A stretch of DNA of 31,434 bases from a virus, in the IMG/VR virus record IMGVR_UViG_3300007541_000107, positions 1 to 31,434 of that record. One strand, written 5' to 3'. Position 1 is the first letter of the stretch, and every line of letters begins with the position of its first letter. The notes beneath the pieces are model-generated. The model was not told where the DNA came from, made no database searches, and saw only the letters and a program-made list of their open reading frames with translations. The translations under genes were made by a program, and so were the position numbers. Shown here piece after piece: positions 2,245-30,832 of the stretch.

Positions 2245-4428
2245 TTATTCAAAGAAGTTAATAAATGTGGGCGGAATCCCACCATTAAGCTGTTCAATGT
2301 AAAGAGGATGAAAGCTAACTCCAGCATCCTTTGTCCAGTCTTTCCAGATAAAATTCTGCCGCCCCGTTGTCTGCGAAGAGGTATCCGTCCATAAAGATCT
2401 TATGGTTCCCGAGCCTGCGAAATGGACTGCTTCAATAGTCCAAGGACTTTCATTGCCAGCCGCAGCCGCTCCTGAAACGGTGTAGATCACAGACTGGTTG
2501 GAAGCCAAGTTCCTTTCTATGTTGATGGTAAGTCCCAGCCAAAGGATTTCAGTTGTGCCCCCTGCCAACCCATAGAGAGCTTGTGGAGTGGTCCATATAT
2601 AGAGTACTTGTTGAGTGTCAGCAGCATTCAATGGTGTAAAGTCTGCATTGAACAGGAATCCGTTGTGATAGTCATACCAAGGACCAAAGGCGGGCTTCAA
2701 GCAATCCCTGAAGACAGTATCTGTGACTGACTGGTAGGTTCCAGGTTCGTTGAAGCATTGCCAGCCAGCAAAATTCCTAAGTCCAGGAAGGTTTTTCATT
2801 ACCCCGTCAGCAGTTTGGTCAAGCCCGTAAATGGTGCACCCCCGCATAATATGGTTTTGAATAAACAGGCGACCACTAAACCCACTAATATAATGGTCAA
2901 ATACCGCGCTTTCCAAGGCTCCGTTGGCAGAATCGGAAATGATGGTATCAACAATTTCGACGTCGGCAGACATGCTTATTGCGCTCGAGTTGGCTTGTCT
3001 GAGTTCGCAGTTTTTAATCAGGATTTTCTCCCCATCGGTTCCGCAGTAGATCATCTCCCCGCGACAATTAGTGATGTTTACCGTATCAAAGACCACATTC
3101 CTAAACGTGTAAGTCCCGTAGCTTGAGAATAACTTATGGCTAATGTCCCATTGATTTCTTTTTTCATCCAAAGAATACCACTCTTTTCCAGTATTAACAG
3201 GATTTGCTCCCATATCAATGTCCAGATTTTTGAAAGTAAGATTCTCGACTGCATTAGGTCTGAATACGGTGTAACGTCTGACATTACTAACCGCTGATCC
3301 TGATGCTCCAGTAAGCACATTAAGCCATTTAGTTGCTGGTTCTTTGCCCCAGAGATACAGGTTCCAGAAAGTTGTAGGCGATCCTCCAGAGGCATCCCCA
3401 AGAAAGGTGATGTTGTCAGAAGTAATATCAAACAAAAAACTGGTTGCAGTTTCTCCGCTTTCAATTTCTGGGTATCCGTCAACAATATCAACGTCAGCAT
3501 CAACGGGCCAGAGGTCATAGGTTCCAGCAGGGGCATAGATAATCCCGCCGCCAGCCGCTTGAGCAGCAGCCAATGCCGCCAAGACTGCCGGATAATCATT
3601 CAGTCCGTCTCCTGCAATAGCCCCGTAAGCCCCATCCGTGATGTCATACGTTAGTTTTAATCCACCGGCTAAGGTAGTAGTGGTTGCTGCCCCGTAGAGC
3701 CATCCAGAGAACGTAGGAATAGCCGCATCTTGGTAATGCTCTGACAAGTTGGTGACAACTCCAACCCTATAATAATAAGTGGTTCCTTCCGATAAGTCTT
3801 CGATGTCAACGTAGTTGTCGGCATTGACCCCAAGGAATCGAAAGGTTGAGGTTGACTGATTATCCGTCAAATCTGTTGGGTCAGTAAAGGAAGGCGTTTC
3901 ACTTCTTTGAATAATCCAGGGATCATCCCACGCTTCCACATCAGTCCATGATAGATAAACACTTAGGTGATTTGTTTCAAGAGTTGTGATTTCATATTCA
4001 GGCAATGGGTTTGCCGGAGCAAGCACGTTAATTACTTGAGTGTTTGAAACATCCGTTGCCCCGTCATTGTCCGTTGCCGTCAAGGTAACTGAAAAGTTTC
4101 CTGGTGTTGTGTATTCGTGACTGGGGTTTTGGCTTGTTGAGGTGCCTTCACCATCACCAAATGACCATAGCCAACCAGAAATAGTCCCATCTGAATCCGT
4201 TGAGGTATCGGTAAATGCAACCGTTAAAGGTGCGTCACCGCTTGACGTATCAACCGTGAAGGATGCAACGGGAGGATTATTTAGTGGCACAGGGTCCTCC
4301 TGGGCTTCCGTCAAGGCTCGGCCAATAAGGTTCCCCGTAATTGTAATAGTCCCCTCAAAGATGATGGTTCCTTTTTCTTGACCAAGCAGAGCAAGAGGTA
4401 TGAGCAATAGTAGGATTAGATGTTTCAT
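2245..4428 (-). CDS. Tailspike-like protein: Sec signal peptide, PKD domain, FN3-like domain, beta-helix
   Basis: A 727-residue multidomain protein. Residues 1-17 (MKHLILLLLIPLALLGQ) look like a Sec signal peptide. Residues 52-135 form a PKD domain with the diagnostic WSFGDG (88-93) and TLTATDNDG. Residues 141-227 look FN3-like (SVYLSWTDVEAW, GTTYYYRVGVV). From about residue 258 a pectate-lyase-type beta-helix begins: DGAYGAIAGDGLNDYPAVLA and GGGIIYAPAGTYDL are the usual first-rung signature of phage depolymerase tailspikes, followed by repeated rungs (NITFLGD, FRNVVFDTVNITNC). It probably binds or cleaves a surface glycan. A signal peptide is odd for a protein expected to assemble onto tails in the cytoplasm. 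The start has no Shine-Dalgarno match and overlaps or abuts the upstream mini-ORF. Confidence 0.78.
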   Translation of the reverse strand: MKHLILLLLIPLALLGQEKGTIIFEGTITITGNLIGRALTEAQEDPVPLNNPPVASFTVDTSSGDAPLTVAFTDTSTDSDGTISGWLWSFGDGEGTSTSQNPSHEYTTPGNFSVTLTATDNDGATDVSNTQVINVLAPANPLPEYEITTLETNHLSVYLSWTDVEAWDDPWIIQRSETPSFTDPTDLTDNQSTSTFRFLGVNADNYVDIEDLSEGTTYYYRVGVVTNLSEHYQDAAIPTFSGWLYGAATTTTLAGGLKLTYDITDGAYGAIAGDGLNDYPAVLAALAAAQAAGGGIIYAPAGTYDLWPVDADVDIVDGYPEIESGETATSFLFDITSDNITFLGDASGGSPTTFWNLYLWGKEPATKWLNVLTGASGSAVSNVRRYTVFRPNAVENLTFKNLDIDMGANPVNTGKEWYSLDEKRNQWDISHKLFSSYGTYTFRNVVFDTVNITNCRGEMIYCGTDGEKILIKNCELRQANSSAISMSADVEIVDTIISDSANGALESAVFDHYISGFSGRLFIQNHIMRGCTIYGLDQTADGVMKNLPGLRNFAGWQCFNEPGTYQSVTDTVFRDCLKPAFGPWYDYHNGFLFNADFTPLNAADTQQVLYIWTTPQALYGLAGGTTEILWLGLTINIERNLASNQSVIYTVSGAAAAGNESPWTIEAVHFAGSGTIRSLWTDTSSQTTGRQNFIWKDWTKDAGVSFHPLYIEQLNGGIPPTFINFFE

Positions 4429-4527
4429 TCAGTGATATAAAAACCGTTGAATCTCAGAGTTGCGGACGGCGCCTTGGGCGACGGTTAAAAGAGGGATAAA
4501 GAGTGCCAGGTAGATTGGTTTTTTCAT
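4429..4527 (-). CDS. 32-residue signal-peptide-like mini-ORF, possibly frameshifted
   Basis: An ORF from the ATG at 4527 to a TGA at 4431-4429, filling the gap between the two tailspike-like genes. The product starts MKKPIYLALFIPLLTVAQGA, a convincing Sec signal peptide with a possible cleavage after VAQ or AQG, followed by only about 12 residues. In the +1 frame the 3' end instead reads PSATLRFNGFYITE, and its TGA overlaps the next ATG as ATGA, the junction used throughout this genome. So the frame may be broken by an indel or joined by a +1 frameshift near the GCCCAAGGCGCC stretch. No ribosome site is clear. It may be a small secreted peptide, a remnant or a frameshift gene. Confidence 0.4.
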   Translation of the reverse strand: MKKPIYLALFIPLLTVAQGAVRNSEIQRFLYH

Positions 4528-4532
4528 GTGTT

Positions 4533-6569
4533 TTATTTGGCAACCCAGCCAGTGTTTCCCGTTCCAGACTCTTTAATGTAAAGTGTTGTCCCCGTCCCAC
4601 CGTCTGTCCTCATGTAGGTAGACCCAATATCAGCAGTTGCCACACCGTTTGGGTCCCCGGTCCCGGTTAAAATCCTGACAGACCCGGCACCCATGTAAAC
4701 GTCCGCACCAGATATCCGTGCAACTCCTAATGCTCTTAATGTTCCACCCACCCTGAAGTCATCATCGGTTTTCAGGCTGTTAGAACTATCTCTGTATAAA
4801 TTAACATCGGTTGTTGACCCATCCCCAAACTCAATTGAATCCCCAGAAATTAGGAATCGGTTGGAAACATCCCCCAAAACTTTAACTTTCAAGGCTTCGT
4901 CGGTATCTTCGCCTAAAATAAACTCATTAAAGGTGTTTGTAGTTTGGAACAAATTTTCAGTATACGTGATTGTGTTGGTGGTTGCTCCCCCGATGTGACA
5001 ACCAAGGATTCTTACAATCCCATAGTTAATCATAATGATACCATCATTGACACCCCCATCAAATTGGCAATTTGTGATCGAAACCCTGCGTCTATAATGG
5101 GCTATTGGATCGAAGTTTATACCCGTTCCACTATACCCAAACTGACTGCCGTTGACTGTGATGTCCCCTATGTTATTGTACTTTGCAATTGTGAAAACTG
5201 AAGTGGCATCAGGGTTTACAGCCCACTGTCCACCGGTAAACGAAACAGAAACGGTTGCCGTTTTTGTCGATCCAACATAATCAGTTATTGTGCCAATCTG
5301 GTTAGCCCCTGTGCCTGAGTTGATTGCCACGGAATACCCGTTGTAAGTGTCATCAGAACCGCTTGCCCCGGCATCCAGGACAATGGTTGTTGAAGTAGAA
5401 GAGACGGCGGTTCCGGTGTGTTGTATGTCCAAGGCACCGGAACTAAAGTTGATGCCAACCCCGTTACTGAGCAATGTGCATCCCTCAATTACATTCCCTG
5501 TCCCACTACCGTATGAAAAATCAATGGAGTTTTCTACTTGATTAGCCCCTAAATTAGTGGTCCTTACATTTGATATGATGCCCCAGTTTACCCTAGCTTC
5601 ATTGGAAGGCCCTGCGACCGCTTTGTTAAAGTGAATCCCGCGATAAGTTCCAGCGAAAAGCAGGTCAGTAAAAATGAAATGGTTAAAATAGTAAGGGGAA
5701 GATCCTGCTAGTGCGTAAACTTCGATACCTGTGTTTGATGTCCTTGTGCCTGAAACACCGCCTTCAAAACTAAGAGAACTTGCTTGGAAATAATATGCGT
5801 TCCCGCTAGAGCAATCTATCCGAACCATCGGAATATCACTTGTTGTAACGATCCGACTTGTTTGTCCATCGCCTCTTATGCCCCTGTAATTTCCGGTAAA
5901 TGTTAATGTGCTGCTTATCAGAAATCTCCCAGATGGAACATAGACAACACTCCAGCCACTGGCGGGCTGGCTTTCAATGTAGTCAATTACTGCCTGGATT
6001 GCGCTTGAATCATCGGTTGAACCGTTTCCCAATGCTCCCGCCCATCTGACGTTTATGTCACTATCAAACTCCCTTACCAGCCGCCCCGCCCCGCTTGCCA
6101 CAGGATCAAACACGCTCAGTCCGTCAGCAGTAGCCGTGCTGCTGGCGTCCCAGAACACATCAGGGCCAAAGAACTGATCTCCGGCTGTGTTGTAGCCATT
6201 GCACTTGACCCTTGCCCCGTCCGAAACTGAGGAAAAATCATAGTTAAGCATTGCCGTAACGCTGGAAAACTCAAGTTCAACGGCTCCTTTAATCACCCCA
6301 CCAATATCAAGGTCACCATCTAGTGTCATGTCAAATCCAGATACAGTCCAAGTTCCTTCTGATGAATCCCAGACAAAGGTTGCCCCGTCAGCAAAAGAAA
6401 CAGTGTGATCTTCACCGACTGTCCCAATTGTCATTGGAGCAGCACCCGGCAGAAGTAAAGTCCCGTCAACTGTTTCATTTCCGGTAACTCGTTGATCACC
6501 GTATCTAATAAATTGCCCAAATAACGGAACAGCAAAAATAAAAGTTAAAGCCGCGATTATTTTTTTCAT
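4533..6569 (-). CDS. Tailspike-like beta-helix protein with N-terminal Sec signal peptide
   Basis: A 678-residue protein. Residues 1-19 (MKKIIAALTFIFAVPLFGQ) form a textbook Sec signal peptide: two lysines, hydrophobic core, small-residue end. Residues 20-100 are repeats like those of fibre shafts (RVTGNETVDGTLLLPG, MTLDGDLDIGG). Residues 100-200 carry the usual entry to a phage pectate-lyase-type beta-helix (FDSDINVRWAGALGNG, DDSSAIQAVIDYI, VVYVPSGRFLISSTL), followed by many beta rungs to about 560. The C-terminus (GTGDPNGVATADIGSTYMR, then LYIKESGTGNTGWVAK) resembles a module I know from the ends of many phage fibre proteins. Role: glycan recognition or depolymerisation at adsorption. The signal peptide conflicts with simple cytoplasmic tail assembly. 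The upstream sequence (CAGGTATAATATTATG) has at best a weak ribosome site. Confidence 0.82.
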   Translation of the reverse strand: MKKIIAALTFIFAVPLFGQFIRYGDQRVTGNETVDGTLLLPGAAPMTIGTVGEDHTVSFADGATFVWDSSEGTWTVSGFDMTLDGDLDIGGVIKGAVELEFSSVTAMLNYDFSSVSDGARVKCNGYNTAGDQFFGPDVFWDASSTATADGLSVFDPVASGAGRLVREFDSDINVRWAGALGNGSTDDSSAIQAVIDYIESQPASGWSVVYVPSGRFLISSTLTFTGNYRGIRGDGQTSRIVTTSDIPMVRIDCSSGNAYYFQASSLSFEGGVSGTRTSNTGIEVYALAGSSPYYFNHFIFTDLLFAGTYRGIHFNKAVAGPSNEARVNWGIISNVRTTNLGANQVENSIDFSYGSGTGNVIEGCTLLSNGVGINFSSGALDIQHTGTAVSSTSTTIVLDAGASGSDDTYNGYSVAINSGTGANQIGTITDYVGSTKTATVSVSFTGGQWAVNPDATSVFTIAKYNNIGDITVNGSQFGYSGTGINFDPIAHYRRRVSITNCQFDGGVNDGIIMINYGIVRILGCHIGGATTNTITYTENLFQTTNTFNEFILGEDTDEALKVKVLGDVSNRFLISGDSIEFGDGSTTDVNLYRDSSNSLKTDDDFRVGGTLRALGVARISGADVYMGAGSVRILTGTGDPNGVATADIGSTYMRTDGGTGTTLYIKESGTGNTGWVAK

Positions 6570-6590: not shown

Positions 6591-7469
6591 TTATAGAGCC
6601 GTAACGGAAATCTGGTTGTCATCATCATATGTTCGACAGACACAACGCAAAAAGCAAACTCGAGTTGCCAGCAATCCAGTTTTATCAATTTGAAAAGTGA
6701 TGCCACCGCTTAATGAGCTAACGCTTACCACAAACTTTTCGCCAGAAGCTTCAATATCTTCCATCAGTTCTTTTTGCGTACAGCTATAACCGCCCGTCAG
6801 TCTTTTAGCCATAAAAAGGGAATAATGGGAATATCCGATTCCCTCAATCCAGGCATCGACTTCAATTCGACAGCCATAACCAACTGTTCCGATATTCACT
6901 CGAAAAGCATCGACATTTGCAGCAGTGGTTACGGTCTTTTGAACCGCCAGAGAAATTGCAGCCTGCCCCACGTCCGAGCCATCAGAGACTTCCGGCAATC
7001 CAGTTGTTGCGTTGAAGTGAAGATACTTTCCGGCACGAGCCGAAGCAATTGGAAGAACCACATCAGTTGCAATATCACCAACTGGAAGTTTGATTGACCG
7101 CCTGGAAAGATTTAAAAGCCGTTTTGTAATCCCTACAATGTAATCTAAAGCACCTTCAATCTTTGTCCTCGAAAACCCTTTCATATAAGTGAAAGTATTT
7201 GACTGAAGCAATGGCATTACCGGTTCGATAACGAAAACGTCATCTTCAAGAAAGTCCCCATCCAGAAGGACATTCCCACCCGTTGAATTGCCGATTCCAT
7301 CAAGAGTGTAATTCGTTCCATGGACCAAAACCGTTTCTATTCCAACACGAACCAGAGTTACCTTTAATTGATCCTGATTAGTGATCTTGAAAGGATAACT
7401 TAGAATCGGATCGGTTTCATCAGCCGCCAACATGGGATTGTTGTAGGTCGTACTTGTCGAAATGCTCAT
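6591..7469 (-). CDS. Tail-fibre adaptor, T7 gp17 N-terminal-like
   Basis: A 292-residue protein placed like T7 gene 17, directly after the last internal virion protein. Residues 20-130 have the pattern of the T7-type fibre N-terminal domain that docks on the tail: YPFKITNQDQLKVTLV, GTNYTLDG (51-58), a D-V-F-V-I stretch (77-81), FSRTKIEGALDYIV (99-112) and RRSIKLP (123-129). The C-terminal half is a compact beta-rich domain of unknown role, much shorter than a full fibre. It therefore probably acts as an adaptor on which the separate tailspike-like proteins are mounted. A good ribosome site (AAAAAGGACAATAA) precedes the ATG, which also overlaps the previous stop (ATGA). It is the only protein of the fibre block with both a docking domain and no signal peptide. 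Confidence 0.8.
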   Translation of the reverse strand: MSISTSTTYNNPMLAADETDPILSYPFKITNQDQLKVTLVRVGIETVLVHGTNYTLDGIGNSTGGNVLLDGDFLEDDVFVIEPVMPLLQSNTFTYMKGFSRTKIEGALDYIVGITKRLLNLSRRSIKLPVGDIATDVVLPIASARAGKYLHFNATTGLPEVSDGSDVGQAAISLAVQKTVTTAANVDAFRVNIGTVGYGCRIEVDAWIEGIGYSHYSLFMAKRLTGGYSCTQKELMEDIEASGEKFVVSVSSLSGGITFQIDKTGLLATRVCFLRCVCRTYDDDNQISVTAL

Positions 7470-10400
7470 TTATTGTCCTTTTTCTTTTGCTTTTGATTTT
7501 TGATTTTTTCATTTCCTCCACCGAACCACCAGTAGTAAGGAGCTCCGAAAAGAGGCACGACGCGCCAAGTTTCGGCATCCTCAAGATTAAATTCCTTCTT
7601 ATCATTTAAAATCGTTTGAGCATCACGGAAAGGATAATCGAACCAAGGCATCGGAGGTGACAAGGTAATCAAAGCCGTATCCCGAATCCCATGCTCCCGA
7701 GCATAATATAGGCTGTACCTCGACAATCCGCCAAGCTTCCAGACGTTATCAACTGCGATGTCAGAAAGAGTCGGATCACGCCCCATCACAAAATCCTTCA
7801 GCCAGTCCGTAGGAATTCCAGCCAGCCAGAGAAAAGCCAGCAATCGGGTAAGATTCAGGAATCCTTTGGTAAACCGGCCCCAGTCTTTTGTTTCATAGCC
7901 TTTAGCCATTTCTACAATTCCTTCACGGCGATAGGAATCAATCTGTTTAATTGTGAAGGTTTTCAGCATATAAGCCACCCGGCCACGGGGATTTTCAAGA
8001 TACCCTTTAGGCATTTCCGACAAGTCAACAGGATGATAATCAAGCAGGATATTCCATCCGAGCAGAAGCACATCATTAGACTTCCGGCCTTCCGCCAGAT
8101 CATTCTTCAGCTTGTTGATTCGTGCCTGGTCATTCGCAAAGTATTCGTTCAGCCGTTCCTGATTCCGCGCAAGAAAGCGACCCTTTCGAGCTTGAGCCCG
8201 ATAAGCTCTGATTCCGCTATTGACCAAGGTATTTTGCCCAGCCCTGCCAAAATGTTTAAGCCCAATAGCAGTAAAGACCGTATCGACCGCCTTGGCCATC
8301 GAAACCATGTCTTTGTATTCAGTGTTCAGGTTTCCAAGTCCCAAGTCCCGCTGGATTTTGATTTCGCTGATTCCGAAAACACTGGCCAGCCAGGAACTTC
8401 CCGCACGTCCAATTCCAGCTTCAAAAGCAGCAAAGGCAATATCCTGAAACTGGGTAATCGTAGAGGTAATGCCGCTTCCCATAGTGGTCAGATAGCCAAG
8501 CGAACGAAAACGCGCCCAGTTCTTGGGAGTTGCCTGGAATCCAAAGTAAGCTTTTAGATCCTTAACAAGTTCATCCTGTTCCAAGGCACTGATTCGACCG
8601 GCTTCAAACTCCGGAAGAAGGTAAGCCCCTATGGACTGATCCAGGTCAATTCGCTTTGAAACCGGCTTTGCTTCCTCATCTCCGTATTTGTTTTGTCCCG
8701 TAGTGACCAGATTCCAGATAACCTTATCACCAAAGAAGTTCTTGCGCTCGATAGCCGTTACAATGCTGGTAATGTACCTATCCAGAGAATCAAAAGGATT
8801 CGTGGAGTAGTACTTTTCAAATTGTTCCGGAGTAACTTCCTCGATTTGACGTTGCTTGAAGTTGGAAGGCTTTGCATCGCCGGGAGCCCGGAAACCTTTC
8901 AAGACCTGATTGATAACCGTAATTTTTTCTTCCTCAGTAAGAAGCCCGTTTTTGCTTTCAGCATTCCGAATTGCATTTCTGATTATTCCATCACGTTCCC
9001 GGCCAAACGATCCAAGCAACCCGTCCAGATCCTTTATATGTCTTGGCCAGTAGTTATCTATTTCCCCGACCTCGTAACCGGCTTTAATCGCCGCTTTCCG
9101 GAGCCCTGCCATCACGTCAATTGCTTCCTGAAGTTCTTCCCCATTGAGAACACTTCGAACAAAATCAAAATCCCCGTTGATCAGAGCAAGACCCACTTGT
9201 TTCCGCTTTTCCTTGCTCAAAGCAGAGTAAGCAATTCTCAAAGGCATTGTCCGAGCAATGCTGTCCTGAATCTGTACGTTTACATCCAAGCCAAATTTCC
9301 GGAGCCGGGAGAATACCCCCGGAGAAATCCGCCTTATACGACTCGACAAAGGCAACCCCGCATAGGAAATAAAGCCGCGTTCCTTGGTAAGCGGAATCCG
9401 GCCTTCAGCCAGGGCTTTTTCTTCTTCTTCACGTTGAGTTTCCGCCCGTTCCCTCATCAGCCTGGAATGATACTCATTAAACAACTCATTTGCCGGAGTA
9501 ATTCCATAATCATCCGGAGGTGGATCAGGAAGCTTTTGGCTGTCCATCATCGAAAATGATTCATTTATGAGCCCCGACCTTTTCATGGAAAGCCATCCGG
9601 AAGACGTTACATCAAGCAAGTCAATTTGATACACTTCAAGATCCTTTTGAAGCTGGCGAAAATCCTGAATCGGACGCTGATTAGTTGTTGCAAGCAGGAT
9701 TGACGGAGATCCAAAATCAGAAGCACCGCGAACAATCATATCCAGCAATTCCCGATAAGTAAGATTCCTTGGATGCTGCTCAATAGCCGTCAAAGCATTT
9801 TTTGTAGTCAGATAAATGATGAAATCTTTATCTTCCGCGTGAGTTCTTAACCCAGTAGCAATTGAATTTAAGGTTTCGGGATCACTAACAAACGGAAGAT
9901 TCCGCCTTGGCACCAATTCCCATGGCGGCATTTTTGGAATTTCCTCAAATTTTCTAAGCAACCCGTAATCAGATTGGAAAAAAGAACCCATCGAATAATA
10001 TCTGTCCCCATTCGTGATAAGTTGACCGCCATAACTTACATTTTTTCCGAAGGTAGTTCCTTCCATCATTTTATGGATCATCATATCAGCTGCACTGGGA
10101 TTAGGATTACCAGAAGGATGATTGTGCCAGATGATCACTTTCCGCGCATTGTCACCGGCCTGATTCACAAGTTTTCTGATCAGCTTTACATCCACCAAAG
10201 ATGAACTGATAGTCCCGGCCGTGAGGATTTGGGCTCTAATAATTTCCCCGTCCTCATTCAAGACCGCAGCCCCAAACAATTCCTGATAAGGATTCCGAAG
10301 CGTTGCAGCCAAATAGGCAAAATCCTTGTGATTCAGAACCTTTTGACCTTCCCACTTCAGATTAGGTATATCACCTTTTACCAAAGCGGGAGCAATAGAA

Positions 10401-13400
10401 CTAACACGGCCACGCAGATTCAATGACTGGGAAACCATTGCCTGACCCTCTGTAGTTAAGATATCTTCGAGTAACCGGCCTGAAAAGGCCTCCTGACTCA
10501 ACAACTCATTAAAAGCCGAATCGATTGCCAAAGATTTGTTCTCACTTTCCGGGATTGGTTTCCCCGAGAAATCGAATTCACCTTGAGTTCCGGATTCCTC
10601 AGCCAAACCTGGAAAAGATTTAGAAGCCTTCAAATATTTATAAACTTGCGCCGGAGTCATTTCCCGGAGCCTTCCAAGGGTCTTTTGCTTATCTCCTAGT
10701 GAAAAAGTGTCTTCTATGGTGATATCAGAGGCATCGAAAATTACGTAATTGAACGCTTCTTTTTCTGTTCCACGAGCATAGTTTTTATACTTGATTCCCC
10801 GGATTCCGTAAGAATGAAGTAATTCACTGGCATCCCGCTGCCCTGTTTCTTGACTGATCAGTGTGTAAAGATTTTGACCAGTGGGATTGACCCCAGCCGC
10901 AGAGGCCCGGTTCTCAATTTCAGCCCAATAGCCAGTGTTTTCATCCAGCTTTTCCAGAGCCGCTTGAACCTTGGGAGACTGCTCATCAAGCATTTCGTCC
11001 CAAAGCAGGTATTCATCCTGTTCCGGAGCCAGATTCACCTTATAAATCTTACCGGACCTTGTTTCCCCTGGAACAAACTTGAAGCCCTCGAGTACAATCA
11101 TCTGTTCAGTAAATTGCCTGATTTCCCTGTCCCGTAAGTCTCTTAGAATCTGATCACGAATTTCACCATCGGGAAGGTCAGCGAATGATTGTGCTCTTAC
11201 TTCCGGAAACTCCTGTACCAAATAAAGGTTTAAATCATGCGGTTCCAATCCATACGTTAAACTAGCTTCCTTCAGATTTCCATGAAACTCAATAGCCCAT
11301 TGAAGCCCTTCGAGAGCGCCTTCCCGGGCCTTATCAAATTCACTTTGACTCCATTGGCTTACATCCTTCCAGGTATCCGCGTGCGATTGCAGCAACTCAA
11401 AAGCCTGGTACTCCGTCAGGCTTCCTCCGACTGGTATGTAAGGATTTCCATCAGCCTTTAGCAATACCCCGGGATTGTTTTGTTTACTCAGTTTGTCCCG
11501 GTAATGCTTTGCAACCCCTTCCTTATCCGCAAAATAGAGACCCCATCCAAAAGCTTGATTTCCTTCACCCTTTCCAATCCAGTCATTGCTGAACTTGTCA
11601 AAGTTGTAAGGTGATCCATGCCAGGCAGAATGAAAGGTATCCTCAATCAAACCGGAGTCATGTTCGCTGAAAAGTTCATCAACCCCTTCCTCACCGAAGA
11701 CCCGTTTCAGTTTGGATTTCAGTTCATCGACATTCCCGGCCTTGGCAAAGTCCCCGCCAAGCTTTTCCGAATCGATCATAAAAGAAGGGCTGAAGCCCGT
11801 GGGATCATCTTGCCGACCGTATTTCTCCAGCCACTTCAAACGCTCCCTGAAGATCGTCATACGCTGTTCAGGAGTGAACGAAGGATCAGTTAAGTAATCC
11901 CCGGAGATCGGCACCATTTGAAAGGTATCGCCTAATGGGTATTGCTCCAGCCCGTGCATCGAGTCATTCAGAGCCGAAAGCATTTCATCAATCGTTTCAA
12001 ACTGAAATCCCTGTTCGTTCAGAGACTCCCTGATATGATCCAAGTCAGTAACCTTCACATCCTTTGGGAAAAACCTATCAGCAGCAGCCGTATTGCGCCG
12101 CCTAGCGGTTTTCACGACCGGACTCGACTTGTCCCCCCTGCGAGCCCTTATCCGGTAAGAAACGGTCTTTACAAGGTTCTCATATAGTTCCGCCACATCC
12201 GAAGCCATCGGATCACCTTTGGTCCTCAAGATTTGAGGATGCGGAATCTTCCCCTTCAGGATATTCGAAAGTTCCGTTGCCGGATCAGGAATGAAACCAG
12301 CTCCAGCAGCTTCATTGCGTTCCCGTTCAAGATTGTAATCCTCATCCCGACCCAGGGCACGTAAGATATGGGTTTCAAGATTTGCGTCCAATTGTCCGAG
12401 CTCCTTCATGTAGACAAGGTTCATTGCGTGATTAAGCACAGCCCGGAAATAAACCTGGAGTTTCCGAACAAAGGTTTCAAACCACGTCGGAAGGATTTCT
12501 CTCAGAATCTTGGAATCCCCGACATCTCTAACTGTTCCGCCATCGGTCAGCACGTAATCAACTACCAGATCAGAAAAGAGCTCGAGAGCCCCTTCCCGGG
12601 TGTCAGCGTATTTGTTTTCCCCCAGGAAATCTTCCCATTGGTGTTTCCAGTCCATCAGTTCAGCTTCAGTCAGTTCCCCGGAGTCCAGAGCCCATTTGAT
12701 GTAACCTTCAGACCTTTCCTCGATGACAGTCAGAGGATTTCCGTTCTGATAGATGTAAGAAATGTCTTGAACCATGCGGTTTGTTTTTGGATCACGGATT
12801 GCCTGATTCCGGCCAAAGATAGAGATTTCCTGCATATCCTCCAGAGTGGGACGTTCATTCCCATCCAAAGGTTTGATTGCCCGGATTGCCCGAAGAGCCG
12901 CCGACTGTCTGACACTGCCCTTTCGAACCAGATCTGCCAAAGTAGGATTCACTTCCGACATATGAACAAAGGTACTATTTCCATCCATGAACTGTTCAAA
13001 GTAGCCAATCGCTTCATTGGTCATCGCAACGCCGGCACGTTTGGGAGCTTCAACTACGTACTGGGTAAGATACTCCAGCCCTTCCGCTTCAGTTTTGAAG
13101 GTTTGAACTACTTCCTCATCCGGATCCAACATCACCCAATCATCCCCGCGCTTTACGAGAGTTGGCACTGTTTCCATTCCAGAAACCTGAGATTGAAGCC
13201 GTTCCGCTTCGAATTCTTCAACGACATCAATTCCCGTCAGTTCTCTAAGTTCGAGAGTCTTTGACCGTTTTTGCCAGTCAGCCATGAACTGTTTCCCCTG
13301 TTCCGTAGTGGTATCAATCTCGAAAACCCGGACTTCCTCCGGACCTTTGTGCAAGGCAAAGACAGAATTCCCGGACTGGTAAAGGTCAACCCCTTCCATC

Positions 13401-14863
13401 GAGTCCAGTTTCTTAAAGCCGGTTCCTTCCAAATTGGGGGAAAGCATTGCATTGTATGCCAGTTGAGCAATACGGCTTCCGTTCATCGCCTGAATAAAGG
13501 TATCAGCCGCATCGCCGAGACGTTCCCGAGCTTGTTTATCCGTCATGTACTCCCGCGCCTGAAGAAATTCCGACTGAGTAAGCGGTTCCCCTGTCTTGCT
13601 TCTGATCAGGTTATCCTTCCGCCTGTTCTCGAGTACGGATCCAGTTGCTGAGAATACGGAACTGATTCCACCCCCGGCGATAGCTCCGACCGTAAATTCA
13701 AGGACACGTTTCTTGAAAGCTTCCTCAGTAAAGAGCTCCCGGCCTTCATCGTATGAGAGTGACGCGATAGAATCGAGCAGGAGGCCTTGCAAGGCTTCAG
13801 TGGACCCTTCAGCCGCGCCAGCCGTTGCAAAGGCTTTCGCAGCCCCTTTTGCTATTTCTGCCCCGGAAATCTTGCCTTTCTTGGGAACGTGTTTCCAGAT
13901 TTTGCCAATAACCGACTCAATACCCATTCTTTCAAGGATCATCCCAGGTATTGCGTACTGCATTCCAACCCGGAATTCTTCCAGTTGATCAGTCCCACCA
14001 TTTTCCCGGTAATCATCCACCGCTTCCTGATATAAAGCTGACTCGATGGCCATCGGCCCAACGTAGGGAACAAAAGCAGCCGGGATGTAAACTCCCATCT
14101 GTCCAACCGCATCGAGAACACCGCCGACAACAGATTCACTAAATTCCTTATCGATTTTATTCCACTCAACAAAGGCCTTCCGCTTTGCCCCGACATCCTT
14201 TGACCAGTCCATGAAAAGCGAATCCGTTGCCTTTACAGCAATCCGCTTTCTCAAGTTCTCGTGATGTTCCGCCAGTTGAGCATTTAGCTCCCGGAATTCA
14301 GCCTGTTCCGCAGCCGTTAAAAAGTTCCAATCAAGAATCTGTCTTTCCGGTTCAGCCACCGCGGTAATGAACATGTTCCCAGGTCCAGCGATTTCCTTCA
14401 TCCTGTCCTTGATTTCAGCAATGCTTTTCTTTTCCGGCTCGGAGTAATGGCCACCCATTGCCGCAGATCCAAGAACAGCCGTTTGAGCCAAAGACCCTTC
14501 AGCCACCATCAAACCGGTTTTGACAGTTCCGCCCATAACGGTTTTCCCGGCATCGATGAAATCGTTCTGAGTTCCACGGGGAACATTGTTCGATTTGAAA
14601 TAATCGACCAGCGAAGCATACGCTTCCGAATCACTGACTTCCTTTTTAAAAAAGTTGCCTTTCAAGGCATCGTAATCTCTCAAGACTTCCTGATGTGGTT
14701 TCTTCATCCGTTCAGACAGGAAAGCGGATACAAACCACTTATCAGCCACCGCTTCAGGATCGCTTGAACCCTCCATGGCCTTAGACAATTCAGCCCTTGT
14801 TTGTGGTCCAAGGGCGTTTAGGCGTTGATCGGGATCAACAAAATATGGCGCCAGATTACTCAT
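7466..14863 (-). CDS. Giant polyvalent internal virion (ejection) protein with ADP-ribosyltransferase-like and RadC/JAB-like domains
   Basis: A 2465-residue protein in the position of T7 gene 16, the large ejected core protein. The N-terminal 410 residues are helical with several glycine/alanine-rich hydrophobic stretches (about 105-135, 245-275, 385-405), plausibly membrane-interacting. Around 700-860 are VIEERSEGYIK and a helical segment typical of large phage polyvalent proteins. At about 1080-1377 lies an ART-PolyVal-like ADP-ribosyltransferase: AWHGSPYNFDKF (His1082), FGWGLYFADKEGVAKHY, and YVIFDASDI. At about 1500-1620 lies a RadC-like JAB domain with a complete metal site: Glu1528, HNHPSG (His1580, His1582), Ser1590 and Asp1593. 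The C-terminal 600 residues contain IDNYWPRHIKD and end in WRVVPLFGAPYYWWFGGG, like other LPD38-type polyvalent proteins. The start is coupled by ATGA overlap. I saw no transglycosylase motif like that of T7 gp16. Confidence 0.85.
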   Translation of the reverse strand: MSNLAPYFVDPDQRLNALGPQTRAELSKAMEGSSDPEAVADKWFVSAFLSERMKKPHQEVLRDYDALKGNFFKKEVSDSEAYASLVDYFKSNNVPRGTQNDFIDAGKTVMGGTVKTGLMVAEGSLAQTAVLGSAAMGGHYSEPEKKSIAEIKDRMKEIAGPGNMFITAVAEPERQILDWNFLTAAEQAEFRELNAQLAEHHENLRKRIAVKATDSLFMDWSKDVGAKRKAFVEWNKIDKEFSESVVGGVLDAVGQMGVYIPAAFVPYVGPMAIESALYQEAVDDYRENGGTDQLEEFRVGMQYAIPGMILERMGIESVIGKIWKHVPKKGKISGAEIAKGAAKAFATAGAAEGSTEALQGLLLDSIASLSYDEGRELFTEEAFKKRVLEFTVGAIAGGGISSVFSATGSVLENRRKDNLIRSKTGEPLTQSEFLQAREYMTDKQARERLGDAADTFIQAMNGSRIAQLAYNAMLSPNLEGTGFKKLDSMEGVDLYQSGNSVFALHKGPEEVRVFEIDTTTEQGKQFMADWQKRSKTLELRELTGIDVVEEFEAERLQSQVSGMETVPTLVKRGDDWVMLDPDEEVVQTFKTEAEGLEYLTQYVVEAPKRAGVAMTNEAIGYFEQFMDGNSTFVHMSEVNPTLADLVRKGSVRQSAALRAIRAIKPLDGNERPTLEDMQEISIFGRNQAIRDPKTNRMVQDISYIYQNGNPLTVIEERSEGYIKWALDSGELTEAELMDWKHQWEDFLGENKYADTREGALELFSDLVVDYVLTDGGTVRDVGDSKILREILPTWFETFVRKLQVYFRAVLNHAMNLVYMKELGQLDANLETHILRALGRDEDYNLERERNEAAGAGFIPDPATELSNILKGKIPHPQILRTKGDPMASDVAELYENLVKTVSYRIRARRGDKSSPVVKTARRRNTAAADRFFPKDVKVTDLDHIRESLNEQGFQFETIDEMLSALNDSMHGLEQYPLGDTFQMVPISGDYLTDPSFTPEQRMTIFRERLKWLEKYGRQDDPTGFSPSFMIDSEKLGGDFAKAGNVDELKSKLKRVFGEEGVDELFSEHDSGLIEDTFHSAWHGSPYNFDKFSNDWIGKGEGNQAFGWGLYFADKEGVAKHYRDKLSKQNNPGVLLKADGNPYIPVGGSLTEYQAFELLQSHADTWKDVSQWSQSEFDKAREGALEGLQWAIEFHGNLKEASLTYGLEPHDLNLYLVQEFPEVRAQSFADLPDGEIRDQILRDLRDREIRQFTEQMIVLEGFKFVPGETRSGKIYKVNLAPEQDEYLLWDEMLDEQSPKVQAALEKLDENTGYWAEIENRASAAGVNPTGQNLYTLISQETGQRDASELLHSYGIRGIKYKNYARGTEKEAFNYVIFDASDITIEDTFSLGDKQKTLGRLREMTPAQVYKYLKASKSFPGLAEESGTQGEFDFSGKPIPESENKSLAIDSAFNELLSQEAFSGRLLEDILTTEGQAMVSQSLNLRGRVSSIAPALVKGDIPNLKWEGQKVLNHKDFAYLAATLRNPYQELFGAAVLNEDGEIIRAQILTAGTISSSLVDVKLIRKLVNQAGDNARKVIIWHNHPSGNPNPSAADMMIHKMMEGTTFGKNVSYGGQLITNGDRYYSMGSFFQSDYGLLRKFEEIPKMPPWELVPRRNLPFVSDPETLNSIATGLRTHAEDKDFIIYLTTKNALTAIEQHPRNLTYRELLDMIVRGASDFGSPSILLATTNQRPIQDFRQLQKDLEVYQIDLLDVTSSGWLSMKRSGLINESFSMMDSQKLPDPPPDDYGITPANELFNEYHSRLMRERAETQREEEEKALAEGRIPLTKERGFISYAGLPLSSRIRRISPGVFSRLRKFGLDVNVQIQDSIARTMPLRIAYSALSKEKRKQVGLALINGDFDFVRSVLNGEELQEAIDVMAGLRKAAIKAGYEVGEIDNYWPRHIKDLDGLLGSFGRERDGIIRNAIRNAESKNGLLTEEEKITVINQVLKGFRAPGDAKPSNFKQRQIEEVTPEQFEKYYSTNPFDSLDRYITSIVTAIERKNFFGDKVIWNLVTTGQNKYGDEEAKPVSKRIDLDQSIGAYLLPEFEAGRISALEQDELVKDLKAYFGFQATPKNWARFRSLGYLTTMGSGITSTITQFQDIAFAAFEAGIGRAGSSWLASVFGISEIKIQRDLGLGNLNTEYKDMVSMAKAVDTVFTAIGLKHFGRAGQNTLVNSGIRAYRAQARKGRFLARNQERLNEYFANDQARINKLKNDLAEGRKSNDVLLLGWNILLDYHPVDLSEMPKGYLENPRGRVAYMLKTFTIKQIDSYRREGIVEMAKGYETKDWGRFTKGFLNLTRLLAFLWLAGIPTDWLKDFVMGRDPTLSDIAVDNVWKLGGLSRYSLYYAREHGIRDTALITLSPPMPWFDYPFRDAQTILNDKKEFNLEDAETWRVVPLFGAPYYWWFGGGNEKIKNQKQKKKDNK

Positions 14864-26596: not shown

Positions 26597-26942
26597 TCAG
26601 GAACCTTTGTTTAATAGTGATTAGATGATAGATGCGCGGTTTATTGCGCTTTTCCCATCCGACCAGTGGTAATTCAAACGGTGCCCATGTAAAGAGTTTT
26701 TCGATTTTGCCTGAAAAGCAGTGAATCCACCAAGTGTCACCATCCTGCCAATTGATAGTGGGATCGACCAGCAAACCCAGTGACATCTGAGAAGGAACAA
26801 CCCGAGCCATTACAAAAAATTCCGGGCAGTTGATGACATATCCGTGCGCGTAATGCCAGAACAGATCTTCATGGAAGGTCCGTTTCGACCATTCCCGGCG
26901 ATACACCAGCTTTGCCTGTTCATAAGGGGTCAGATACTTCAT
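26571..26942 (-). CDS. Conserved-looking hypothetical protein between terminase and portal
   Basis: A 123-residue protein rich in aromatic residues (EDLFWHYAHGYVINCPEFFV, GDTWWIHCFSGKIEKLF). It resembles small proteins encoded between large terminase and portal in podoviruses, where a W-x-R-T-F-x-x-D motif (here WSKRTFHEDLFWH) is followed by a beta-rich core. I know no function. The start overlaps the terminase stop (ATGA). There are no signal, membrane or metal motifs. It may be a packaging accessory or a GNAT-like fold; the sequence does not decide. Confidence 0.62.
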   Translation of the reverse strand: MKYLTPYEQAKLVYRREWSKRTFHEDLFWHYAHGYVINCPEFFVMARVVPSQMSLGLLVDPTINWQDGDTWWIHCFSGKIEKLFTWAPFELPLVGWEKRNKPRIYHLITIKQRFLNAQSIPQS

Positions 26943-28615
26943 CGGGTTCTTTTCATTCCCTGATACCGTTTCCGGCCGGTTTTGCTATTATCATAAGCTG
27001 ACTTAGCCAAGCCACTCAGTAAAGGCTTTTTCTCCCGGTATTCAGAGGGAATCAAGGCATCGGAGGGAATTAGACCCAGGCTGTAAGCCTCAGCAAACGT
27101 CCTTGCTGCATCTGAATCATGCGAACTCCAGTCGTGAATTGGCTCATGGTGCCACATGTTTTCTTTCTCCAGCCATTTCCGCCGATAGGATTCCAGGCAG
27201 GTAACGCCGGAAGGAATTTCCTCACCCAGTTGATTAACATCCGTCGCACATCTGGTTTTGTGAAAGAAGGATTTTTTTAGCAACCCCTGAAGGGTATTGA
27301 TTCCTTCCCAAATACTCCCGGTTCTGGGAAGTAAATGGATATTTTTCAAACCTGCCTGTTCAAGCTTTTCCTTAAAACTCAAGGCATCATTCGCACTTCG
27401 AGCCCCGCAGTCATGGGGAAGGAAGTTCATTGCCACGTTCCAAGGCTTATTGTTCAGAATATTCACGTAGAACGGAGCCCCTTCACCATAAAGCCGGAAG
27501 TGATCGACCCAGTAAATCCATGGCCCGACGATCTGAATCCACCAAATTGAGCAATAATCCTCAACGCCTTTGTCCCAGTAAGTGCAAAGCGGGTAATCCT
27601 GATGATGTTCAAAATCGATGATCTGCCCCTTTGCCCTGATTGCCGAAATAGTCGGACCATAGATCGCCCCTTCAACCGGAGCCTCAAAGCATTCCTGAGG
27701 AGTCGAAGGAAACTCCCGTTTGATTTCTTCCCCTAGCTCGTGATGTTTTTTGTAGTACCAAAGCCGCTGCCCTTTGGTAAGCCAAATCCCGTGCTCATCC
27801 TGAAGCTTTTGAAAGTATGCCTCATGTTCCTTGTCAATCTGCCCGTAATTACCTTCCAGCGTATAGCTTGGCTCATCGAACCACGGGAAGAACTGAAACA
27901 GGAAATCCAGTTTGGTCATATCTTCCGGTCGAGTTTCCATTGCCCGTTTCAGTAAGCCGTAGAAATCCCCACCTTTTCCACCTTCAAAGGTACTTTCTAC
28001 GATGCACCCGCCATCAACAGGAATCGTCGGAAGCATACCCGTTTTGACTTCCCGGGATCTGCCTGGATCAGTGGCAGCGATCTTTCCCCACTCCGAAATA
28101 TGGCCGAACTGGTTTGTTCCGGATCTTTGCCTAGTGCCAGCCGAGACAGAAGAACCGTTCTCCAGCTCCATAAGGGATTGGTTCTTTGTGAGAGTACCGG
28201 CGCCACGTTTCAAATCTTGCGCCACATGGTCATAGGCGAACTTGATCTTGGTTTTCATCAGCTTTTTGGCGTTTTCCGCGGTATCCGCCAGGATACAAGC
28301 CTGGAAAAGATTGGTCCAGAGAATCATGTCCAGAATCATAATCTCAATCAGTGTGGACATTCCAAGCTGGCGAGCCTTGAGAATTACCTGTCTTTTGTAG
28401 CCTTTGACGTAGTAATCCCGCAACACCTTCAACTGTTGATCGTTTGGAATGAAAAGGATGTCCTGCCCATCCCGATCCACAATGTAATACAGGTTTGAAA
28501 TCCGCCAGATTGGATCCTTTAGCAGTTCCTCGAGTTCTGCCGCCTGTTCCGGAGTAAGATCCAGTTCCGCAGTACTGGTAACGCCGTTGAAGACTCCATC
28601 GAGATCAAAAACCAT
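26939..28615 (-). CDS. terL: Terminase large subunit (ATPase/nuclease DNA packaging motor)
   Basis: A 558-residue large terminase. The N-terminal ATPase has a Walker A-like VILKARQLGMST (77-88), a Walker B region in FGHISEWGKIA (170-180), and ADTAENAKKLM as the adenine-side segment. The C-terminal RNase-H-like nuclease has its acidic sites in YWDKGVEDYC (Asp348), FLPHDCGARS (Asp402) and the final SSHDSDAARTFAEA (Asp499/502). It translocates and cuts DNA at the portal. The start shares one base with the preceding TGA (TGATG). The deviant Walker A without GKT is usual for this terminase family. Next genes: small terminase upstream and portal downstream. Confidence 0.93.
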   Translation of the reverse strand: MVFDLDGVFNGVTSTAELDLTPEQAAELEELLKDPIWRISNLYYIVDRDGQDILFIPNDQQLKVLRDYYVKGYKRQVILKARQLGMSTLIEIMILDMILWTNLFQACILADTAENAKKLMKTKIKFAYDHVAQDLKRGAGTLTKNQSLMELENGSSVSAGTRQRSGTNQFGHISEWGKIAATDPGRSREVKTGMLPTIPVDGGCIVESTFEGGKGGDFYGLLKRAMETRPEDMTKLDFLFQFFPWFDEPSYTLEGNYGQIDKEHEAYFQKLQDEHGIWLTKGQRLWYYKKHHELGEEIKREFPSTPQECFEAPVEGAIYGPTISAIRAKGQIIDFEHHQDYPLCTYWDKGVEDYCSIWWIQIVGPWIYWVDHFRLYGEGAPFYVNILNNKPWNVAMNFLPHDCGARSANDALSFKEKLEQAGLKNIHLLPRTGSIWEGINTLQGLLKKSFFHKTRCATDVNQLGEEIPSGVTCLESYRRKWLEKENMWHHEPIHDWSSHDSDAARTFAEAYSLGLIPSDALIPSEYREKKPLLSGLAKSAYDNSKTGRKRYQGMKRTR

Positions 28616-29067
28616 CAGAGTTCAAACTGTCTCGCAGCCAGCGAAGTACCATGTTGAACGCTAAAGACGTTCAGTTTTTCGATGATTGCGTTCCCAGGTA
28701 TTTCCAAGCCGTTTGAAATGTTCAAGACATCCGAAGGAGACTTTCCAAGCCGGTTGAGGTAAATCCGCCGCTCATACCGCTTTGAAGTGTCTGGATCGAG
28801 GAAACGAGTGAAAAAGCAGTAGGAACTATCACCGGCATACGGCAACCCCAACCGATGGCATTCACCCCACGGAATCCTTCTGATTGTCTCGGTATTGATC
28901 CAATCGAAACCCAACCAAGAACCCAGTTCCGCATTTACAACCGCTTGAACAACGGGAGGTGAAGCCAGAACCTCCGGAACAAAGATCTTCGTAGCCTCAG
29001 AGACAATGATTGCCTTTGTGGCAGCCGGAACCAGTCCGAGCATTTTTAAGAAGCTTCTCCTGTTCAT
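28615..29067 (-). CDS. Tat-signal-bearing hypothetical protein
   Basis: A 150-residue protein starting MNRRSFLKMLGLVPAATKA: twin arginines at 3-4, then Ser, Phe-Leu-Lys, a mild hydrophobic stretch and Pro/Ala-Ser residues up to about residue 38. This matches the S/T-R-R-x-F-L-K consensus of twin-arginine signal peptides, with Asn in the first place. The mature part (about 110 residues) has GFDWINTETIRRIPWGECHR and RYERRIYLNRLGKSPSDVL, and I recognise no domain. The ATG at 29067 shares a base with the previous stop (TGATG); a GTG just upstream is in frame. It sits immediately before terL and two genes after a TatA-like ORF, implying a role at or beyond the inner membrane. Confidence 0.72.
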   Translation of the reverse strand: MNRRSFLKMLGLVPAATKAIIVSEATKIFVPEVLASPPVVQAVVNAELGSWLGFDWINTETIRRIPWGECHRLGLPYAGDSSYCFFTRFLDPDTSKRYERRIYLNRLGKSPSDVLNISNGLEIPGNAIIEKLNVFSVQHGTSLAARQFEL

Positions 29068-29456
29068 CACATGTCAACGTATTGAATGTCCTCAGGCCTT
29101 ACAGTCCATTCAATCTTCCAATGGATTCCGCACTTTTTGGCTTCCTCCCGAAACTTTTTGATTTCCGCCTTATGGATCTGGTCCTTTCCATCACAGATTG
29201 CTTTGAACCAGTTTAGCTTTACTTCGTACTCATCCTGATCCTTCACGACCCCGTAAATATCCCCTAGCTCATGCTTAGAATCCGGAGGGTAATAATGAAC
29301 GCATTCAATCAGTGTGGGGGTTCCTCTTATAATCTCATTATCCGCTACCCGGCATTCCCGCAAAAAGAAACCGATCACAATAATGACAAGCATTCCAACA
29401 ACGACCAGAGCCGGAGCCGCTTCCTGAAGGGTAATTCCAAACAAATCAAGATTCAC
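29067..29456 (-). CDS. One-span membrane protein of unknown function
   Basis: A 129-residue protein with a single hydrophobic span (about residues 15-32, PALVVVGMLVIIVIGFFL) followed by a charged soluble domain (KLNWFKAICDGKDQIHKAEI). Start is a GTG at 29456 with an AAAAGGA ribosome site seven bases upstream; an ATG two bases before it is out of frame. It lies between the TatA-like/HNH locus and the Tat-signal gene, and its stop overlaps the latter's start. A membrane accessory to those genes is possible, but I know no homologue. Confidence 0.68.
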   Translation of the reverse strand: MNLDLFGITLQEAAPALVVVGMLVIIVIGFFLRECRVADNEIIRGTPTLIECVHYYPPDSKHELGDIYGVVKDQDEYEVKLNWFKAICDGKDQIHKAEIKKFREEAKKCGIHWKIEWTVRPEDIQYVDM

Positions 29457-29664
29457 ATCGATCCTTTTTATCGTGGTTTAAGTGGCAACGCTGACAAAGA
29501 GCAGCGACATTCAAAAGAGAACAATCCCCGGGATCTTTGTCAAACACGTGTGCAGTGGTCAGCCAGCTGAGGCAATTTCTTCCCGCCAAAGAGCAGTAAA
29601 AGCACAAATACGATAATTCCGATTTCCCAAAGACCAAGCCCCGCCAAGAACGCAATTGTTTCAA
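29446..29664 (-). CDS. HNH-type zinc-binding nuclease-like protein, overlapping tatA-like ORF
   Basis: A frame of up to 72 residues (first start a TTG at 29664). The second half is a clear HNH fold: LTTAHVFDKDPGDCS (His39), LLNVAALCQRCH (Asn52, Cys57, Cys60, His61) and LNHDKKD (His64). An upstream LCFYC (Cys21, Cys24) could supply the other half of a treble-clef zinc site. HNH proteins often accompany phage terminases and can be needed for genome cutting. The first 125 bases are shared, in another frame, with the TatA-like ORF, so the true start is uncertain; it may be any TTG or GTG inside the overlap. If the TatA-like ORF alone is real here, this is a partial remnant. Confidence 0.6.
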   Translation of the reverse strand: MKQLRSWRGLVFGKSELSYLCFYCSLAGRNCLSWLTTAHVFDKDPGDCSLLNVAALCQRCHLNHDKKDRCES

Positions 29665-29671
29665 TCCTCAT
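29540..29671 (-). CDS. TatA/E-like twin-arginine translocase subunit, phage-encoded
   Basis: A 43-residue ORF from the ATG at 29671 to TGA at 29540. It reads as the TatA core: short N-terminus, LGLWEIGIIVFVLLLLFGG as the membrane segment (about 8-30) with Glu16 as the polar residue, the FG hinge at 28-29, then KKLPQLA (31-37), exactly the G-x-K-K-L-P-x-L-A pattern of TatA/TatE. TatA oligomers form the passage for folded proteins carrying RR signals. This product ends six residues after the pattern (DHCTRV), so it lacks most of the amphipathic helix; it may work with host TatBC or act as a small membrane-active (holin-like) protein. The ATG lies 11 bases inside the upstream gene's 3' end. Most of it overlaps the HNH-like frame. 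A phage-encoded Tat signal protein is two genes downstream. Confidence 0.7.
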   Translation of the reverse strand: MRIETIAFLAGLGLWEIGIIVFVLLLLFGGKKLPQLADHCTRV

Positions 29672-29816
29672 TTTCTTCCTTTTCTTGTTTTGCTACCAAC
29701 CAGCCCTTCACGAATTCATTGTGATAACGCAAGGGAAAGACCTTTTTCAAAGGGTCAAAGTCATACCCATCCCAAAAAGCCGCATAGCCCATGCTCCAAA
29801 AATCCGCGGGCGTCAT
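29661..29816 (-). CDS. Small hypothetical protein
   Basis: A 51-residue protein starting MTPADFWSMGYAAFWDGYD, with many aromatics and a charged tail (VAKQEKEENED). I chose the ATG at 29816 because it makes an ATGA overlap with the previous stop; an upstream in-frame TTG at 29849 (62 residues) is the alternative and would overlap the previous gene by 37 bases. I recognise no family. The FW..GY.AFWDGYD..P pattern suggests a compact fold. It may be coupled to the TatA-like ORF, whose ATG lies within its last codons. Confidence 0.55.
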   Translation of the reverse strand: MTPADFWSMGYAAFWDGYDFDPLKKVFPLRYHNEFVKGWLVAKQEKEENED

Positions 29817-30124
29817 CTTGGCTCGAGCTCTTTTCCATAGTTTACCCAAACCCTTCCGTTTTTTCCGAAGTTCTCATCATAGCAGAAAGTTACCACCGGC
29901 CTGTTTTGATACTCACCACTCAGTCTTTCCAATATCTCCATCGAGGCTTTCTTACTGATCTGAGTAATCGGAGGAGGCATGTAAGTTAAAGGAGGCCCTA
30001 TCTTTTGTCGCAGCTTTAGCCAGGACGTAACCAGAAGGCTTTCCTCCAGCGTCATTCCATATACACCCTTTGCGCCTGGATTGATGTCAATCACATAGCA
30101 AATGTCTTCATCTTCAGTCATCAT
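29813..30124 (-). CDS. Hypothetical protein downstream of small terminase
   Basis: A 103-residue acidic-to-neutral protein with no signal or membrane span (DICYVIDINPGAKGVYGMTL, PVVTFCYDENFGKNGRVWVN). Not recognised. The beta-hairpin-like ends and central helix (ESLLVTSWLKLRQKI) suggest a small alpha/beta domain. Its start overlaps the small terminase stop by four bases and its stop overlaps the next start, so it belongs to the packaging operon. Confidence 0.62.
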   Translation of the reverse strand: MMTEDEDICYVIDINPGAKGVYGMTLEESLLVTSWLKLRQKIGPPLTYMPPPITQISKKASMEILERLSGEYQNRPVVTFCYDENFGKNGRVWVNYGKELEPR

Positions 30125-30534
30125 TTCTTCCTTGAGTTGTGTTCTCTCACTCTTGCAAGCAGTTCGTCAAGATTAGATTGGATGTTCACCTTCTGAGGAG
30201 CGTTTTCACCCGTCATCTTGTTATCCAGGTCAATTGCCCTCAAGGCATCGGTATCCCCGCCAGTCATTGCGATGACATAGAGGCGGCCACGTTTGAGAGC
30301 CCGATTCATTGCCAGCTTCTCAATATCCCTGTTCTGGAAGTATCGTAGCAGCCTTTGAATATTATCATTTTTTAGCATGCGACACACTGTAACCGCAGCC
30401 GTTGTTTCAGTGTAACCGGCCTTGATACCGGCTTCCTTATGGTTCATCCCATCGGCAATGAACTGAAGCGTTTTCCTTTGCTTTGGCGTTACTGACTTGA
30501 GCAAAGCTTCTATTGATTTTGGGATTTTACTCAT
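30121..30534 (-). CDS. terS: Terminase small subunit-like DNA-binding protein
   Basis: A 137-residue protein starting MSKIPKSIEALLKSVTPKQR. Residues 16-60 carry a helix-turn-helix typical of small terminases (TPKQRKTLQFIADGMNHKEA, then AGYTETTAAVTVCRML: a K-E-A-x-x-x-AGY core). A central helical oligomerisation part and the basic tail LDELLARVREHNSRKK follow. It would recognise packaging DNA and hand it to the large terminase, encoded about 1.5 kb further along. I chose the ATG at 30534, whose GGAGG lies 11 bases upstream inside the preceding gene, over a longer frame beginning at 30585. It overlaps the upstream stop by eight bases. Confidence 0.78.
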   Translation of the reverse strand: MSKIPKSIEALLKSVTPKQRKTLQFIADGMNHKEAGIKAGYTETTAAVTVCRMLKNDNIQRLLRYFQNRDIEKLAMNRALKRGRLYVIAMTGGDTDALRAIDLDNKMTGENAPQKVNIQSNLDELLARVREHNSRKK

Positions 30535-30832
30535 CCAGCACAAACCCTCCTTTCCGGAATATATTGAGAACCTCGAGAGTTTCATCCTGAGTCAGCTTTC
30601 CGCCTTTCTCTATATAAGATTCGTAAAGAAGCTGGGCTTCGATTCCCGACAGAGTGATTCCCTTTGGAACATCGGCACAATAGACCAGAGCAAAGGATTC
30701 AACCCCAGGATAGGACTCAGATCCGAAAGGAAAGTACGGAGACTCATAAACCTTGGTCCAGTTCCTTGCCGGGATTTCCTTAATCTGTTTCTTCCATCGA
30801 GTCTTTCTGTAATTGGTCCAGCTTTCCTTCAT
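30527..30832 (-). CDS. Hypothetical protein upstream of small terminase
   Basis: A protein of about 101 residues (MKESWTNYRKTRWKKQIKEI...FRKGGFVLDE) with a basic N-terminus and an acidic, helical C-terminus (GKLTQDETLEVLNIFRKGGF). Not recognised. The ATG at 30832 has GGAG five bases upstream and would overlap the preceding gene by 53 bases. The frame remains open to an ATG at 30895, which would add an amphipathic leader (MNRLIMWLLDKLTWLQMELE) and extend the overlap to 116 bases; that start has no ribosome site. Confidence 0.55.
   Translation of the reverse strand: MKESWTNYRKTRWKKQIKEIPARNWTKVYESPYFPFGSESYPGVESFALVYCADVPKGITLSGIEAQLLYESYIEKGGKLTQDETLEVLNIFRKGGFVLDE

Follow-up and report, generated by a model that had tools for sequence, protein, structure and literature searches.

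The window analysed here is the whole 31,434 nt of the IMG/VR virus record IMGVR_UViG_3300007541_000107. Its virion genes are podovirus-like (tail, internal virion protein, head-tail adaptor and major head protein), and the genes for the small and large terminase subunits lie where a preliminary description of this DNA had placed them (Table 1). There is a gene for a 2465 aa protein between the tail and internal virion genes (7466-14863), and where the tail-fibre region ends a 154 aa protein (245-709) matches phrog_1128 (E 3e-32), which is labelled enoyl-CoA hydratase/carnithine racemase-like. The run of genes between terS and terL includes a very short ORF whose start falls within the 3' end of the ORF before it and is preceded, a few bases upstream, by AAGGA. 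The 129 aa protein of this run gave no family match in Pfam or PHROG profile searches.

Table 1. Positions of the features around the 43-residue ORF in the window
Feature	Position	Strand	Evidence
Terminase small subunit (terS)	30121..30585	minus	PF03592 32.2 bits; phrog_51
62 aa ORF, no assigned function; 3' end overlaps tatA start	29661..29849	minus	ORF list; upstream sequence
43 aa ORF, truncated phage tatA	29540..29671	minus	Translation; PF02416 32.5 bits; shuffle control
TatA-homologous part of the 43 aa ORF	29561..29671	minus	Profile match stops at residue 37
HNH endonuclease gene, 3' remnant, in another frame than tatA	29446..29562	minus	phrog_1571 match; HNH frame extends upstream in L003
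129 aa protein with N-terminal hydrophobic segment, between HNH remnant and Tat-signal gene	29067..29456	minus	ORF list
Putative Tat cargo, 151 aa, just upstream of terL	28615..29070	minus	PF10518 20.1 bits; motif rule passed
Terminase large subunit (terL)	26939..28615	minus	phrog_2; phage TerL relatives

The translation of the short ORF is MRIETIAFLAGLGLWEIGIIVFVLLLLFGGKKLPQLADHCTRV. Its TatA-homologous part consists of an N-terminal extension, a membrane helix with a glutamate, an FGG hinge and KKLPQLA, and the membrane helix with its polar residue followed by the FG hinge can be seen in GLWEIGIIVFVLLLLFGG. The search with the Pfam family TatA_B_E (PF02416) that had been suggested beforehand exceeded the curated cut-off of 21 with 32.5 bits (E 5e-8) and aligned residues 12-37 to positions 1-26 of the 53-position profile. 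The TIGR01411 tatAE model reached only 30.4 bits with a cut-off of 53.9, as expected because the ORF encodes a half-length protein. Against a profile of 80 bacterial TatA sequences the ORF scored 49.2 bits, and none of 20,000 shuffled peptides exceeded 14.6; the 80 sequences were chosen as relatives of the ORF, which makes the absolute score favourable but does not account for the distance from the shuffled peptides. In the window, this profile matched only the frame of this ORF. These scores show a real ORF that is genuinely related to TatA, as the preliminary description had proposed, and the TatA core listed there is present in both sequence and alignment. Its remark that most of the amphipathic helix is missing also holds: the extent of the profile match and the alignment agree that homology ends at residue 37 and that no amphipathic helix follows the hinge. 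Only residues 1-37 are TatA, and the last six (DHCTRV) are HNH-gene DNA read out of frame. A tblastn search of phages with the 43-residue peptide gave no match.

TatA homology stops at 29561 and homology to phrog_1571 (HNH endonuclease) begins at 29562, in a different frame. Between window positions 29562 and 20952, the record IMGVR_UViG_3300007542_000434 (L003) and the window share 99.85% identity. On the upstream side of the junction L003 lacks tatA, and the HNH frame runs on with its CxxC half, GCCEWCGARHKEDHPVTGSRVILTTAHVFDKDPG; the phrog_1571 match is 42.7 bits in L003 compared with 30.6 bits for the window remnant. Because HNH sequence spans the junction in L003, the 43-residue product is probably a tatA that lost its amphipathic helix, either by deletion or by recombination. 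The L003 sequence stops 66 nt upstream of the junction, and for that reason no intact tatA was seen at this site in a sister phage. Comparison of L003 (1-177) with the window (29446-29562) shows near-identical phages that differ at one locus, the HNH gene being continued in one and tatA being fused to the HNH 3' half in the other. As judged from this alignment, the difference is an example of local allele replacement beside an HNH gene.

The product of the gene just before terL, which is on the same strand as tatA, has a putative twin-arginine (Tat) signal at its N-terminus, MNRRSFLKMLGLVPAA. Its opening as given with the match to PF10518 (TAT_signal) is MMNRRSFLKMLGLVPAATKAI, and the putative cargo begins (M)MNRRSFLKMLGLVPAATKAI. 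The PF10518 score of 20.1 bits (E 6e-4) is just under the cut-off of 22.7. This gene is two positions from tatA rather than adjacent to it, with the HNH remnant and the 129 aa gene intervening. The mature part of the product belongs to no known family in the searches made, its INPHARED matches were insignificant, and its predicted structure (pLDDT 40) was uninformative.

Further TatA genes were sought by pattern and alignment scans of IMG/VR. Loose DNA patterns gave mostly chance frames, and only frames confirmed by PF02416 or clearly TatA-shaped were kept; PF02416 confirmed every one apart from the later finds L150 and L151, which were read by eye. Nine phage-like contigs with TatA were counted, and in all nine a Tat-signal gene lies directly downstream, at a spacing of -23 to +12 nt and mostly with a 4 nt overlap. 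The TatA proteins of these contigs are 44-69 residues long, and the alignment shows that the amphipathic helix is kept in every phage TatA found other than that of the window. The cargoes fall into five homology groups (L023/G010 with L150/G135; L016/G006, a TRKDFLK variant; L018/G008 with L017/G007; L015/G005 with L027/G011 and L019/G009; and L014/G004), making six lineages when the window is included. There was no PF00902 (tatC) match in the window or in the nine contigs, all of which are possibly incomplete.

The virus status of the contigs rests on their IMG/VR assignment and on named marker genes. Five of the nine carry a terminase, capsid or tape-measure gene: G004 has a terminase and a tape measure, G005 a terminase and a major head protein, G006 and G011 a terminase, and G009 a tape measure. 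Two groups are weakly marked as phage. In the first, G008 has an internal-virion-like match and an ART-PolyVal match, and G007 has RusA and a Strawberry-notch-like helicase; in the second, G010 has a sub-threshold SU10 adaptor and G135 is marked by its resemblance to G010. One further TatA, L008 on G003, has no adjacent Tat-signal gene; this contig, which did not match the one terminase profile tried and is not demonstrably viral, is an exception to the pairing.

Three of the Tat-signal proteins are tiny (61-82 aa; L015, 11763-11972; L019, 4932-5117; and L014, 1120-1368) and have a proline-rich tail after the signal, which in two of the three ends in a hydrophobic LLLLF terminus. In L019, a DUF1996 protein whose N-terminus is of secretion type (3651-4616; PF09362, 151 bits) is encoded a short way downstream of the tatA-cargo pair. 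Several of the phage TatAs weakly match phrog_29532, a PHROG family with no assigned function (best E 2e-5); on this basis the family may be one of phage TatAs that has gone unrecognised.

Other candidates were discarded. L151 (G136) was rejected as cellular DNA, the contig carrying TatC, and INPHARED matches to E. coli and phage TatA queries were rejected as host-like DNA. In the four unannotated INPHARED records examined (L248-L251) tatA is followed by a TatC-like gene, and most of the other matching records are annotated as tatA or tatE. The INPHARED entries OR848130, OR849886, MT837480 and MT835496 are unverified phage deposits with tatA and then a TatC-like gene, and are apparently host DNA.

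The bacterial baseline comprised 165 tatA loci, 80 of them closest to the query and 85 from three phyla. Tat signals were called by a motif rule combined with manual sorting; the final rule was slightly looser than an earlier, stricter one, which had missed the cargo of the window. Ten of the bacterial loci gave a regular-expression hit, of which only one was accepted as a Tat-signal gene beside tatA (L145, Alistipes, +143 nt); the other nine, judged by eye, were mostly TatC N-termini (E-x-LRRR). The stricter rule was passed by six of 473 ORFs from the phage contigs and the window, and two of the six are tatA partners. On these counts the pairing of tatA with a cargo is not a background effect.

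Taken together, the data are probably best explained if the window ORF corresponds to the 5' portion of a phage tatA, truncated and likely to be inactive, whose intact versions pair with a Tat cargo and use the host TatC. The intact pair would be a minimal TatA, with membrane helix, hinge and amphipathic helix, and a Tat-signal cargo encoded by an overlapping gene. During infection, newly made phage TatA would join the host TatC receptor and aid export of the cargo in folded form. In E. coli, TatE and foreign TatA-type proteins are able to replace TatA (reviewed in PMC6708511), so it is plausible that a phage TatA could join the host translocase. The window lineage would have carried an intact tatA until deletion or recombination fused it, just after the hinge, to the 3' half of the neighbouring HNH gene. 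This fusion would have removed the amphipathic helix and left the 43-residue product, and the Tat-signal protein before terL would then probably depend on the host TatA. The preliminary description had suggested that the phage could use its own TatA for its own exported protein. Since a Tat-signal gene adjoins tatA in nine of nine phage-like contigs but in only one of 165 bacterial loci, this idea fits a recurring phage arrangement; it probably does not extend to the window ORF, which is truncated by the HNH fusion and is unlikely to work as part of the pore.

It is unlikely that the 43-residue protein is instead a working micro-TatA, whose Glu-bearing helix docks on the TatC of the host so as to aid, adjust or inhibit Tat export. 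The membrane helix, its glutamate, the hinge and KKLPQL are all retained, neither the start nor the ribosome-binding site is damaged, two records carry the fusion in this form, and even phage TatAs that are intact are very short. However, the missing amphipathic helix has been described as important for TatA function (PMC6708511) and is retained by all the other phage TatAs found, and the end of the protein is dictated by out-of-frame HNH DNA.

The junction could also be an assembly chimera in which the tatA and HNH sequences of two related phages were joined. L003 ends near the junction and the sequence differences cluster there: L003 and the window differ by three substitutions, and two of these lie within 40 nt of the junction. 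Against this, the junction is present unchanged in IMGVR_UViG_3300025655_001021, which shares an identical stretch of 9 kb with the window, although the two records are possibly from one sampling project. The only other copy of the 43-residue form found is identical, so that there is one distinct copy in all. We consider an artefact of this kind quite improbable.

A use of the TatA-derived peptide as a holin-like or membrane-active lysis element, also raised in the preliminary description, found no support and appears very unlikely. The ORF does encode a short single-helix membrane protein, and TpeE-family holins, which are likewise small membrane proteins, have been proposed to act somewhat like TatA although they have no sequence relation to it (PMC9527704). 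Among the genes adjacent to the ORF, however, no endolysin or spanin was recognised with Pfam or PHROG profiles; the intact relatives are partnered by Tat-signal cargo, and the 3' end of the ORF looks accidental. Finally, a chance resemblance or a non-coding frame might be suspected of only 43 codons that overlap another frame, but the Pfam match and the gap to the shuffled peptides already refute this as regards homology, and we give it hardly any credence.

Returning to the reading of the window ORF as a truncated phage tatA, we lean, with some reservation, towards a broader proposal. Several unrelated phage lineages would carry a two-gene export module, TatA without TatC and an overlapping cargo, that boosts or re-tunes the host Tat system, and the window would hold such a module decaying by fusion with a homing-endonuclease-type gene. 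If this is true, the module lets a folded phage protein reach the envelope during infection; receptor masking, superinfection exclusion or lysis timing are guesses at the role of the cargo there. We found no description of a phage TatA paired with its own cargo in the open-licence PMC papers searched. Such a pair would be a way to commandeer folded-protein export, and would offer a compact natural test of TatA-substrate matching. Additionally, the window copy is a natural truncation at the hinge and is directly usable to test residual function.

With the TatA/TatE family (PF02416, TIGR01411; E. coli TatA and TatE, B. subtilis TatAc) the window form has in common the membrane helix with a polar residue, the FG hinge and the KKLP motif. 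It differs in stopping six residues past the TatA part, without amphipathic helix or tail, and in lying in a phage packaging region without tatC. The minimal TatAs of uncultivated phages (L014-L019, L023, L027 and L150) are like the window in being phage TatAs without TatC and with a Tat-signal gene nearby; in these, however, the amphipathic helix is kept and the cargo directly abuts, whereas the window gene is truncated and separated from its cargo by the HNH remnant and the 129 aa gene. An example of bacterial genes that pair a Tat component with its own substrate is phoD-tatAd-tatCd of B. subtilis. As there, a dedicated Tat component adjoins a Tat-signal gene in the phage pairs. In contrast with phoD-tatAd-tatCd, the phage pairs consist of TatA alone without TatC, mostly overlap the cargo gene by 4 nt and recur in unrelated phages.
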